Part shown: piece by piece, positions 1,221 through 5,238 of the stretch
Layout: the number at the start of each line of letters is the position of its first letter
Position numbering within the stretch: position 1 is the stretch's first letter
DNA from: Nitrosomonadales bacterium
GTDB lineage: Bacteria > Pseudomonadota > Gammaproteobacteria > Burkholderiales > SG8-41
Assembly (NCBI GenBank): GCA_009885185.1
Contig: VFLF01000458.1
Location: 1-6,720 of the forward strand
Reading direction: 5' to 3'
Length of the DNA stretch: 6,720 nt
Position numbers and translations under genes: made by a program
The notes under the pieces: model-generated
The model's input: only the letters and a program-made list of their open reading frames with translations
Database searches by the model: none
What the model was told of the DNA's origin: nothing

Positions 1221-1478
1221 GTGCTGACAATTAGAATCATATTGTTGCTTTCAATCGCAGCGTGCATTGGCTGGTACCTATCACTTCCCGGATATGAGCC
1301 AGTTATTGTTGCGATGACGTCGATTGTTGCGTTGATTGGGACGTTTTACGGAAGTTATCGACGCCAAATGGCACCAACGCAGCAACAGTCCGTCGCGAAA
1401 AATGCGCTAGGAATCCAGGCGGGCAGAGATGTTTCGATCGGAAGCATCAATGGCACAGACGAGCGCAAGGATGATTAA
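1221..1478 (+). CDS. Small two-helix membrane protein with C-terminal QAG motif
   Basis: This 85-residue protein has a GTG start preceded by AAGGA. Residues about 3-22 (IRIILLLSIAACIGWYLSL) and 26-46 (EPVIVAMTSIVALIGTFYGSY) are two hydrophobic helices joined by a tight turn at LPGY. Arginines at 47-48 and the N-terminal Arg5 predict, by the positive-inside rule, that both ends are cytoplasmic. The tail carries LGIQAGRDVSIGSI at 63-76, a beta-prone Gln-Ala-Gly motif that recurs near the N-terminus of the next protein. Its stop lies 8 nt inside the next gene's preferred ORF, so the two are probably translationally coupled. I do not recognise a named family. The architecture suits a membrane anchor or a small membrane-disrupting effector triggered through the tail motif; that role is inference. 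Confidence 0.72.
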   Translation: MLTIRIILLLSIAACIGWYLSLPGYEPVIVAMTSIVALIGTFYGSYRRQMAPTQQQSVAKNALGIQAGRDVSIGSINGTDERKDD

Positions 1479-2523
1479 GGACCAAGACCAAATTGTCGGT
1501 GAGGGAGGGCTTGCTGTGCAGGCCGGAGGCAACGTAACAGTCACGGCTGTTGGGCTTACCTTGGCGGAAGCAAGAACTGTTGCGATGGATGTTGCCAAGG
1601 CAACATTTTATGAGCTCTCTGGTGCTGCCAAGGAAACCGCAGCCGCGCGAGTCGAGGAGATCACAGAGCGGGTGTTGGCAAAGCTATTGAAAGACTACCC
1701 TGAGGGACTTCAGAAAGCGATTGACCCTGATTTTCAGTACGCCTTGTTTTCTGTACAGAAGGAGTTTGCGCGCAATGGTGACAAGGATTTGGGGGATCTG
1801 CTCGTCGATTTGTTGGTTGACAGAAGCAAACAAGACCAGCGAGATATTCTCCAGATTGTTCTGAACGAATCCATCAACACAGCCCCAAAACTGACTGAGC
1901 AACACTTGGCCGCGTTGGCTGTTATTTTTCTACTTAGATACACAAGAAATAACGGCGTTGGCAATCACGACTTGTTCGGCAAGTACCTTGACGAGCACGT
2001 TAAGCCTTTCGCATCTAAACTTCCGCGAAGTAACGCAGCGTACCAGCATCTGGACTTTACAGGCTGCGGATCAATATCTATTTCTTCTGCGATCCTTGAG
2101 TCGATCCTGGGATCTACGTATCAAGGTCAATTTTTGAATGGCTTCGAAAGTGCCGAGATTGAATCAAAGGGGATTTCAATTGGGCGAGATGCCCGTTTTT
2201 TTATACCGTGCTTGAACGACGCTACAAAAACTCAAGTTAGGGCGAATAGCCAATCTGGACTTGAGGAGCTGTTCGACACCTACAATATCAAGGAAGAGGA
2301 TCGCGGAAAGATACTGGAGTTATTTAACGTAGCTAAGTTTGGTGACGATGAGATACGAGAGAAGGTAATTGAAATCCGCCCGTACATGAAAGAGGTATTT
2401 GACTGCTGGTCCAGCACTCCGATGAAGAATTTCACGTTGACCAGCGTTGGAATGGCAATCGGGCATGCAAACATAAAGCGTTTGGTAGGCGAGTTCGCAA
2501 GTCTTGCGATTTGGATAAATTAG
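1471..2523 (+). CDS. LPO_1073/Vpar_1526-family-like protein, N-terminal QAG motif
   Basis: This 350-residue soluble protein starts with a short beta-prone motif (LAVQAGGNVTVTAV, residues 14-27). A helical body follows: LTLAEARTVAMDVAKATFY at 29-47, an Ala/Glu-rich helix to about 75, then DPDFQYALFSVQKEFARNGD at 85-104 and KDLGDLLVDLLVDRSK at 105-120. The stretch LQIVLNESINTAPKLTEQ (127-144) and YQHLDFTGCGSIS (191-203) follow. From memory this pattern is that of the family NCBI names LPO_1073/Vpar_1526, which has no known function. I see no catalytic motif, signal peptide or membrane segment. The start is uncertain. ATG 1471 gives the family-like N-terminus (MIKDQDQ) and overlaps the upstream stop by 8 nt, but has no well-spaced ribosome site. 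ATG 1450, with GGAAG at 1440-1444, would add seven residues. Sampled G+C is near 43%. The pairing with a membrane protein suggests a sensor or regulator role (inference). Confidence 0.72.
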   Translation: MIKDQDQIVGEGGLAVQAGGNVTVTAVGLTLAEARTVAMDVAKATFYELSGAAKETAAARVEEITERVLAKLLKDYPEGLQKAIDPDFQYALFSVQKEFARNGDKDLGDLLVDLLVDRSKQDQRDILQIVLNESINTAPKLTEQHLAALAVIFLLRYTRNNGVGNHDLFGKYLDEHVKPFASKLPRSNAAYQHLDFTGCGSISISSAILESILGSTYQGQFLNGFESAEIESKGISIGRDARFFIPCLNDATKTQVRANSQSGLEELFDTYNIKEEDRGKILELFNVAKFGDDEIREKVIEIRPYMKEVFDCWSSTPMKNFTLTSVGMAIGHANIKRLVGEFASLAIWIN

Positions 2524-2663: not shown

Positions 2664-4115
2664 CTAGAATTGTGGTTTGCTCTTTACCCATCGGCGGCGA
2701 ATAACGTCGTGATCATCTGTCTTGAATTCCACGCGAAGCACTCGATGAACTTTGAGCGATGAGAGATCCACGCGCAGCGTTGAATGTCGTCCATCCCGGT
2801 CTAAGTGGGTCGAAAAAAATCCCTCGAAATCAAATAACGGACGACGGTGCTTCTTCTTGTGAACTCGACGAGGGACTTCTTCTGTCACTTCATAGGATAC
2901 CTCCCAGCAATCTTCGTACATCTGTCCCGTGGATGCAGAGACTGTTGTGCCCTCTGGTAGTTCCATCGGCTCGATGCGCGCCGCCTTGTGAAAGAGAACA
3001 ACATTCATGGAATTGTCGCGAGCTTGCACTGATGGAAAGACTATTCCATCGAATGGTGGCTCGTTTTCGGAAGCAAGAAAGTCGGCGATGGCCTGAGTTG
3101 GCAAGTAGTTAAATGCCTCATCGTCGGGCATTATTGGCTTTGCAATTCGTGCGCCAAGCGAGCGGAGAAATGCTGCGCGCTCTAGCCTGTTTGCAATTTC
3201 GGGGTCAAAAATGCTGCCCGTTTCTCGCACATCTCCGAGTGCCGTCAGGTCGAGAAGCTTTACTGGTCGGATAATCGTGAACGCTGCGGTCGCGACCTGA
3301 CTTCCTACCGGAGGGCGTACTTCTGCGATCGCGGTAGTTGGTAACGTGGCACCGTAAAATACCGAAATTCCGTGAGCATTCATTCGGCCCGCAGTCGCAT
3401 TGAGCGAAGATGGGGGCCCGAGATGAAGATCTGGGCGACAAAGGGCGACCTCAAGCCGCTCATCGGATTGGAATACGCGTGCACGAAATAGGACGCCGAG
3501 CGAGGAATCGGGGCCGCCCTCGACAACAAGTGGGCGTCCGTCAATGGCCTTCATCGAGTCTATCCCGCCGAAGACCGATGCGAGATGGACCGTAGCCGAT
3601 CGATTGAAGTGACGTGCCTCAGTCTTGATCGACTTTTCAAATTCCGCCCAGGCTTCTCGCCACCTGCTTTCGTCCGTTTCTCGTTTCTCGTAGTAGCTTT
3701 CAGAGTCGAATTCGCTTTCCTCGAATGGAGCGCTGGGGTCGTAATCGGAATGTTCATGTTCGAGAATCGCCTGCACATCCAAAGCAGCGCCAGAAGGAAT
3801 GTCTGCGGCATTCTCAATGGCCTCGACGACGGGCAGTCCGTCCCGCTCCCAATCGTAGGTCGACTCTCGATCAGAGATCATTGATCGCTGTAACGAAGTC
3901 GGCTGATCCGACGTTCTGCGAAAGTGCTGATCGAACGCGACACATACTCGCTCGGCAAGCTCGTTCACCGAAATGGCTTTCAGTTGTCTTGTGCAGTAAG
4001 TGCATCGATGACGGCGACCACTCTTTCGAATCTCTTCGCTAAGAAACGCCTCGCCAACGCACTCATGGCATATCCACTTGCTTTTGCCTAGCGCTGCGTT
4101 ACTGATTCTAGTCAT
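2664..4115 (-). CDS. RES-domain protein with N-terminal zinc finger/HEPN-like region
   Basis: This 483-residue protein opens with a four-cysteine zinc-binding module (CHEC at 16-19, CTYC at 38-41). A helical region to about 185 resembles the HEPN/RES N-terminal domain, including ARHFNRS at 167-173. The RES domain spans about 205-380: LFRARV (209-214), GRMNAHGISVFYGA (243-256), TAIAEVRPPVG (261-271), LLDLTALGD (287-295), FNYLPTQAIADF (335-346), DGIVFPSV (356-363) and NVVLF (371-375). The family's conserved Arg, Glu and Ser are present as R211 or R213, E265 and S362. RES toxins such as MbcT degrade NAD+ by phosphorolysis, so NAD+ attack is the expected activity. A basic tail of about 100 residues (381-483) follows and I do not recognise it. 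ATG 4115 overlaps the preceding stop by 8 nt; a TTG at 4136 would add seven residues. It is the last gene of a three-gene unit and the likely effector. Canonical Xre-RES toxins are much shorter. Confidence 0.82.
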   Translation of the reverse strand: MTRISNAALGKSKWICHECVGEAFLSEEIRKSGRRHRCTYCTRQLKAISVNELAERVCVAFDQHFRRTSDQPTSLQRSMISDRESTYDWERDGLPVVEAIENAADIPSGAALDVQAILEHEHSDYDPSAPFEESEFDSESYYEKRETDESRWREAWAEFEKSIKTEARHFNRSATVHLASVFGGIDSMKAIDGRPLVVEGGPDSSLGVLFRARVFQSDERLEVALCRPDLHLGPPSSLNATAGRMNAHGISVFYGATLPTTAIAEVRPPVGSQVATAAFTIIRPVKLLDLTALGDVRETGSIFDPEIANRLERAAFLRSLGARIAKPIMPDDEAFNYLPTQAIADFLASENEPPFDGIVFPSVQARDNSMNVVLFHKAARIEPMELPEGTTVSASTGQMYEDCWEVSYEVTEEVPRRVHKKKHRRPLFDFEGFFSTHLDRDGRHSTLRVDLSSLKVHRVLRVEFKTDDHDVIRRRWVKSKPQF

Positions 4116-5238
4116 CGACGAAGCTCTGAAACTCAATCTTGTCCTTGGGTCGATGCTTCGGCTGTCCCTTGGTGTTCAGCTTCGCCAATCCTAGAATGAC
4201 AACCGGTTGTCCCCAACGGGGCCTCACGATGTCCTCCATCATCTCCGGGGGTACGACCACCGTTGCGACCCTCTTTCCCCGTTCTCCCTCAAGGGCAACT
4301 TCGTGTCGGCCGCCGATGTCATTCGCGAATTTGAGAACGCCCTCGACTCGAACCTCGACTAAACGATCTGAACGCATGCTGTGTAATTCGACAGAGTTCC
4401 TGGCGCGAGTAACAGACACACTCCTCCTGCCGGAAATGAGATTCGCGTCAAGCCGGACAATCGTGATCCGCTCTCCGTCAGGCAGGATATCGCGCGCGAG
4501 CGCCAAAAAGTTTGCGTAATAGTGTTCGTCGGCGATTCTGTCCTTCAAGCGCTCAGCATCGCCGCTTTGAATGAGTTCGAAGCAACTTACGAGTTCTGCA
4601 AGGGCCTTGTCTGCCATGGAAAACACCGGTAACTCAGGCGCTTCAACCGATCCCAATCGGACATCAATTGCGAAGCTTCCGGCCATCGGGGCGCTAACAT
4701 ACTGGGTCACTGCTTGGTGTTTGCTAGGTCGTCCAATTGAATCCTCAAAGGGAAGGCCCGCAATTCGCTCGTAAGTTCTCTTTACCAGTCGCAAAATTGA
4801 ATTCAGTTTCTGCTGAAATACATCGGTGCGAATTAGGCCGAACCCGACAGCGCTACCATCAAAAGCGACTCGAAGAGACTCAGATAGCAGTTTGACGCCA
4901 TCTTCTGCTAGGGTCTGTTCATACGCAGCCTGCTTGATAATTTGTCGAAATTCCGTAGCCAGCTCCTCGGGGCAATTTCCGGCCAGTCCCTCGCTCGCCA
5001 ATTGCTCGGCTGCGCGAAACTCGTGGGCGGACATCGCCAGTGTCGCAGCACTGCGGTAGAGGACGGACCGAGACGGTTCTTCGTCGCGCTTCTCGCGCAT
5101 CAATTGAGCGGCACACTTCTCCAATTCGAAAGCTTCATGAAGAAGTCTTGCCCTGTCTTTCGACGCAGATTCTCGAATCAGCAGCGCCGCTTCGTATTTC
5201 GCCATACTCTGGCGATGCAATAAGGTTACGTCACTCAT
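4108..5238 (-). CDS. Conserved-looking protein of unknown function, middle gene of RES operon
   Basis: This 376-residue soluble protein has no family I can name. Residues about 10-105 form a TPR-like helical array (AKYEAALLIRES, then EEPSRSVLYRSAATLAMSA at 53-71, then FRAAEQLASEGLAGN at 74-88). A further helical stretch spans about 110-165. Residues about 185-215 look beta-rich (AGSFAIDVRLGSVE), followed by helices to about 250. The C-terminal part, about 255-376, alternates charged beta strands (LVEVRVEGVLKFAND at 293-307, GKRVATVVVPPEMMEDI at 321-337, WGQPVVILGLAKLN at 342-355) and suggests a small beta-barrel. No catalytic signature, signal peptide or membrane segment is visible. The start is firm: ATG overlaps the upstream TGA as ATGA, with GGAGGT 9 nt before it. 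The helical-repeat architecture and its place between the other two genes fit an adaptor, sensor or inhibitor of the RES protein; this is inference. Confidence 0.75.
   Translation of the reverse strand: MSDVTLLHRQSMAKYEAALLIRESASKDRARLLHEAFELEKCAAQLMREKRDEEPSRSVLYRSAATLAMSAHEFRAAEQLASEGLAGNCPEELATEFRQIIKQAAYEQTLAEDGVKLLSESLRVAFDGSAVGFGLIRTDVFQQKLNSILRLVKRTYERIAGLPFEDSIGRPSKHQAVTQYVSAPMAGSFAIDVRLGSVEAPELPVFSMADKALAELVSCFELIQSGDAERLKDRIADEHYYANFLALARDILPDGERITIVRLDANLISGRRSVSVTRARNSVELHSMRSDRLVEVRVEGVLKFANDIGGRHEVALEGERGKRVATVVVPPEMMEDIVRPRWGQPVVILGLAKLNTKGQPKHRPKDKIEFQSFVDD

Follow-up and report, generated by a model that had tools for sequence, protein, structure and literature searches.

A candidate amyloid-signalling pair with a non-NLR partner: matched terminal motifs in a small membrane-type protein and its LPO_1073 family neighbour

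The window, the whole 6,720-nucleotide stretch of Nitrosomonadales bacterium DNA that was analysed, contains two overlapping genes on the forward strand, here called E and R. E (1221..1478, GTG start) encodes an 85-aa small membrane-type protein, the predicted effector, which matches PHROGs family phrog_27656 (E-value 4.2e-8). R (1471..2523) encodes a 350-aa protein, the predicted sensor, which is a clear member of the LPO_1073/Vpar_1526 family (NF045477, 318.5 bits against a cut-off of 45, E-value 3.7e-95). The ATG at 1471 was chosen as the R start because homologues prefer it, positions 1450 and 1429 being alternative starts, and with this choice the 8-nt overlap of the two genes (1471..1478, forward strand) given in the initial annotation was confirmed. 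The LPO_1073/Vpar_1526 family has no named function, PHROGs annotates both the E and the R family as unknown function, and the NF045477 model covers the longest R reading only from residue 42 on, beyond the motif described below. A Pfam search (alignment A5) found no NLR-type NTPase domain (NACHT/NB-ARC) in 46 R proteins including that of the window, in agreement with the initial proposal of an LPO_1073-like rather than an NLR receptor. The 56 E proteins had only weak Pfam matches; the name "Bell" is absent among the 25 of 26 matches listed, and Pfam may hold no Bell model.

Two further genes of the window lie close to the pair. The gene at 54-1076 on the forward strand, which ends 144 nt before E, has an N-terminal Cys pattern and a C-terminal nucleoside-deoxyribosyltransferase/TIR-like segment (PADLOC TIR effector, E-value 2.5e-6; Pfam PF05014, E-value 3.8e-5, below the cut-off), and is possibly another conflict gene. 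At 2664-4136 on the reverse strand, convergent to R, lies a gene for a toxin-like RES-domain protein with a weak HEPN/RES match at its N-terminus.

In its AlphaFold2 model (56 rows; mean 68.6), E is predicted to form two membrane helices, residues 2-21 (1224..1283; hydropathy 2.05) and 26-49 (1296..1367), followed by a low-confidence tail that bears the motif. The second helix ends in a basic stretch and, given the positive-inside rule, this suggests that the E tail is cytosolic. The corresponding model of R (46 rows, whole-model mean pLDDT 86.9) consists of a predicted helical core, which begins at residue 38 in the model (1561..2520), preceded by a low-confidence N-terminal tail in which the R motif is located. 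Fold comparison of R returned no confident match.

The initial annotation had noted that E residues 63-76 (LGIQAGRDVSIGSI, nt 1407-1448) resemble R residues 14-27 (LAVQAGGNVTVTAV, nt 1510-1551), and both the positions and the five identities held on inspection. The likeness is, however, longer than that 14-mer, and extends without gaps over 21 residues, with QQQSVAKNALGIQAGRDVSIG in E (residues 54-74, 1380..1442, forward strand) aligned to QDQIVGEGGLAVQAGGNVTVT in R (1483..1545, forward strand). Motif columns are numbered here from -12 to +8 around the core Q, in a single register. The 14-mers score 31 with BLOSUM62, a value that 10 in 1000 shuffled E tails attain, whereas the 21-mers score 41 against 16.0 ± 5.0 for shuffles, only 1 in 1000 of which did as well. 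Additionally, a profile built from the other 37 E motifs gives 43.3 bits at the motif in the window's R, compared with a best score of 11.2 bits among 142 proteins encoded next to the relatives' pairs. Over all loci, the E-only profile scores a median of 40.9 bits on R, and 36 of the 38 R proteins exceed the best of the 142 neighbours; the R proteins of loci L016 and L052 have low scores.

The seven-residue core IQAG[R/S]DV is common by itself. Viral contigs contain 39 loci with a pattern encoding it. Scores over the full 21 positions were obtained for 35 of them, and since a single one of these (L084, 49.3 bits) falls in the E/R range, with the next at 26.9 bits, the core alone is not diagnostic. 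L084 (368-1285) encodes a 305-aa protein of a viral contig with an NKTWLFSG membrane segment, the motif QQQSGGISSQNIQAGRDVNI and about 250 further residues, and by its sequence it is the same module on another protein. The locus that scores 26.9 bits (L087:4305-4745, reverse complement) encodes a 146-aa viral-contig protein beside a helix-turn-helix-like open reading frame; as it carries GSANIQAGRDVNI, other oligomers may make use of the core as well. Other proteins also bear the motif in different settings: three E-like proteins (P0136, P0143 and P0153) continue for about 110 residues past it, with extensions of two different kinds, and P0172-P0181 are short one-helix proteins that end in it, one of them named Flavobacterium.

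Searches with R yielded 42 loci, or 43 with the window (L003 and L004 are identical in sequence). That the two genes belong together was supported from both sides: an E-type open reading frame with a C-terminal motif lies directly upstream of R in 34 of the 43 R loci, and R lies downstream in all ten loci of an E-side set. The latter was collected from viral contigs by motif pattern and tblastn, and was thus selected for the E motif and not for R; two of its contigs were already in the R set, and L063-L065 are near copies. In all ten, the downstream R bears its own motif. The 61 collected E proteins all have a QAG-like core, which the profile used to search for them itself contained. On the R side, the pattern Q.[QL].{9}QAG occurs within the first 70 residues of 118 of the 120 best R homologues out of 1082, the window's own included. 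Of the 43 more diverse loci, 36 have the motif and one has a broken R; the other six (L026 and L054-L058) lack it, the profile reaching between -8.5 and 3.7 bits at best. The arrangement described for the window, with the motif at the effector C-terminus and at the N-terminus of the adjacent partner, is that of the 34 loci, and is the same as in the bacterial amyloid signalling sequence (BASS) pairs discussed below.

Nine R loci are without an upstream E. L028 is a broken copy; L032, whose R has the motif (53.5 bits), L055 and L056 have no readable stretch before R, since the locus or contig ends there or 175 N cover it; and no E is visible in L026, L054, L057 and L058. In L053 the R motif is present (QNQQSGDNSFNCQAGGNITI, 43.5 bits) and an adjacent E is absent. 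In the broken copy (L028:1824-2219), the first E residues run straight into R past the motif, which resembles a natural deletion. The pair of L003/L004 lies within an array of direct repeats of about 243 bp, in up to 8 copies; identical E and R sequences appear both under Serpentinimonas and in a Chloroflexi bin, which makes it probable that one of the bins is mistaken.

The link between the two motifs that the initial annotation had put forward is borne out by their co-variation within pairs. Of the three observations that the initial annotation named as refuting it (homologues without the motif, no co-variation, genes rarely together), none was made. For 38 pairs (40 were collected, and L004 and L061 were dropped as copies or near copies; L064 and L065 had been left out as near copies of L063, while L035 and L063, alike in R, were both kept), the mean score of E motifs with their own R was 46.2 compared with 37.4 ± 1.3 for shuffled partners, and none of 20,000 shuffles scored as high. 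The result for hairpin-type pairs alone (n=31) was the same (0/20,000). When pairs were permuted as clusters of R-core identity, from which the motif was excluded, no shuffle in 20,000 was as good with 31 clusters (70% identity) or 19 clusters (60%); coarser clustering gave 1 (15 clusters), 17 (11), 25 (8), 108 (6) and 1766 (4) per 20,000. Three columns drive the co-variation, each shifting towards identity: -7 (55% identical versus 26% expected, 0/5000), -2 (39% versus 20%, 0/5000) and +3 (66% versus 41%, 2/5000), values that are uncorrected for the 21 columns or for kinship. At identical residues the same codon is used in 137 of 365 cases within pairs (37.5%) and in 37.5% of cases between loci, which argues for selection on the protein and not for recent DNA conversion. 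The matching is a shift and not a lock, since by raw score the own R ranked first for just 2 of 33 E motifs (that of the window ranked 20th), and since short-type E motifs, described below, average 31.7 with their own R, 30.8 with hairpin-type R and 22.4 with other short-type R. Tree-aware sign tests for single columns on the R-core tree, where changes are few, were not significant (median p 0.125-0.5; -7, 0.125; +3, 0.25). On that tree R is unchanged in many pairs, and where it has changed, this is nearly always along with E.

Two unlike membrane modules are found beside related R cores, and the motif differs between them in both partners. Hairpin-type E proteins have 74-108 aa, whereas a short type, unlike the former, has 61-80 aa and one hydrophobic segment, often with NKEWxFSG. 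On the R-core tree, a quick one with 13 weak branches among its 35 inner branches and several long end branches, the E type switches at least four times, and at least two of these switches are forced by starred branches. For instance, L010 (hairpin) and L016 (short) have sister R cores (95*) and yet differ in E module and motif type, and L009 and L030 (short E, 97*) are nested among hairpin-type R cores. The R motifs of L009, L016 and L030 have the short-type form TN(I/L)Q, matching their E; such switching of the R motif together with the E module is what a coupling code predicts. A different arrangement occurs in L057, where the R chain itself starts with a hydrophobic segment (2.53) and the motif is absent, as if fusion of a membrane segment to R had made the motif needless. 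N-terminal hydrophobic segments in L026, L055 and L056 are borderline (1.58-1.85).

Comparison with known motifs points to two relatives. RHIM motifs have the core G-(I,V)-Q-(I,V)-G (PMC7885112). The cores of the window (GIQAG in E, AVQAG in R) are close to it and to the fungal PP motif (RIPK1-RIPK3 necrosome; HELLP), as are NIQIG and NIQVG in the E proteins of L009 and L030. The E/R motif differs in that its third position is nearly always A and its partners are unrelated; the window lacks the strict RHIM core, (I,V)Q(I,V)G occurs in 2 of 38 E motifs and in none of 38 R motifs, and G[IV]QxG is found in 24 of the 38 E motifs. The second relative is BASS3. When ten core columns of the combined E and R motifs (38 of each) were made into a profile that tolerates as many as two inserted residues, the Frankia BASS3 peptide, a single peptide and not a set of BASS3 profiles, scored 20.6 bits with one insert, and none of 2000 shuffles was as good; the E/R motif is one residue shorter than this peptide past the core. 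Shuffles equalled the scores of an archaeal BASS3-like peptide in 241 of 2000 cases, and those of two fungal sigma-type peptides in 627 and 1537. All of these peptides but the second fungal one were reported as Congo-red positive, and for the BASS3 peptide an aggregate-type infrared spectrum was reported in addition (PMC8086366). Of the three amyloid-positive peptides, then, only BASS3 stands out, so that the profile picks BASS3 and not amyloids in general.

BASS motifs were described from gene pairs of Bell-domain and NLR proteins (Dyrka et al. 2020, as cited in PMC7889193, PMC8086366, PMC12261475 and PMC9815663), and matched motifs at the effector C-terminus and receptor N-terminus are thus already known. 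The E/R pairs share with them adjacent or overlapping genes, a membrane-type effector whose C-terminal motif equals the N-terminal motif of its partner, and a BASS3-like motif. In contrast, R is a non-NLR partner, and E is a predicted two-helix hairpin or one-helix protein without significant Pfam match. Additionally, BASS were reported from multicellular actinomycetes, cyanobacteria and archaea, whereas E/R pairs also occur in Pseudomonadota and E. coli prophages. More rarely, BASS motifs are also reported to accompany CHAT or TIR domains, and what amyloid signalling in NLR-Bell pairs leads to was described, as of 2021, as a matter for further study (PMC7889193). For BASS3, motif-dependent foci that disappear with Q-to-P substitutions in the core have been reported (PMC9815663).

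The preferred reading, to which a probability of roughly 0.6 is assigned, is that R is a non-NLR sensor which templates a RHIM/BASS3-like assembly on the membrane effector E, probably in phage defence. An unlikely though credible alternative is that the coupling is non-amyloid, the motif being a small homotypic beta adaptor of finite size, similar to effector-associated domains (EADs), through which E would be brought to R with no templating of fibres. Like bacterial Death-like domains, EADs are terminal homotypic adaptors with effectors swapped on a core, and those of adjacent genes are also most alike (PMC7159879, PMC8195603). EAD10 (Pfam PF19954) matches three E tails over the motif (best 15.8 bits, E-value 0.015), and the single-chain form L057, with its R domain behind a hydrophobic segment, would suit an adaptor, as would the borderline cases L026, L055 and L056. 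However, all EAD10 matches lie under the cut-off of 24.1. EADs are folded domains from NTPase-centred systems, unlike E/R (PMC7159879, PMC8195603), and a motif of about 21 residues in low-confidence surroundings is short for a folded domain; moreover, it matches the BASS3 peptide reported as amyloid.

The small hydrophobic E, its larger soluble partner, the overlap of their genes and the presence of R in 10/10 E-side loci could also fit a toxin-antitoxin-like pair, in which R would silence a small membrane toxin by binding its tail. This is improbable, as toxin and antitoxin surfaces would be expected to be complementary and not alike, whereas the E/R columns move towards identity, and the membrane segment that L057 carries on its R chain does not suggest an inhibitor. 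Finally, the frequency of the seven-residue core in viral contigs might indicate that the likeness is due to chance, or to a generic Q/G-rich linker without function. The partner permutations already contradict such an origin, and the fixed 21-residue register, the co-variation, the codon control and the profile specificity leave it very little credence.

The pair is sparse: R was found in 12 of 1381 genomes of five sampled groups, five of the 12 being seed genomes. Record titles place the R set in many phyla, some of the records being metagenome bins. Of 5426 complete E. coli genomes, 6 contain 80% or more of the pair, and in all five loci examined (the sixth, a plasmid, was left out) it lies between the replication endonuclease and portal genes of a P2-like prophage; in PEC422 the cargo next to the pair differs. 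The P2 gpA-gpQ interval is an anti-phage hotspot (PMC9122126); the pair of the E. coli relatives, as distinct from that of the window, therefore sits in a known defence locus. Chromosomal neighbour families, among those listed, are mostly housekeeping, and against PADLOC R gave a weak partial HEAT-ARM_XIII match (E-value 0.00087) in 2 of 46 proteins.

If R is indeed a templating sensor, it would perceive an infection cue and expose its N-terminal motif, and on this template the matching motifs of E tails would assemble into an amyloid-like stack. The predicted membrane hairpins of E would thereby be brought together and breach the membrane; the outcome would probably be abortive infection against phages, with mobile elements as carriers of the system. 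In its broadest form, held tentatively and at somewhat less than even odds, this would amount to a minimal, mobile, NLR-free bacterial necrosome, in which a RHIM/BASS3-like amyloid code relays the signal of a new kind of sensor, LPO_1073, to interchangeable membrane killers of one or two helices, and which would work in unicellular bacteria, E. coli prophages included. No description of a non-NLR LPO_1073 partner, of hairpin effectors or of an E. coli prophage home was found in the portions of the literature searched. If true, RHIM-type death signalling would extend past NLR immunity and multicellular bacteria, with each locus keeping its own matched seed, and a function would be assigned to the widespread LPO_1073 family. 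The two-gene version with a non-NLR partner on P2-like prophages would, furthermore, be open to work in E. coli.
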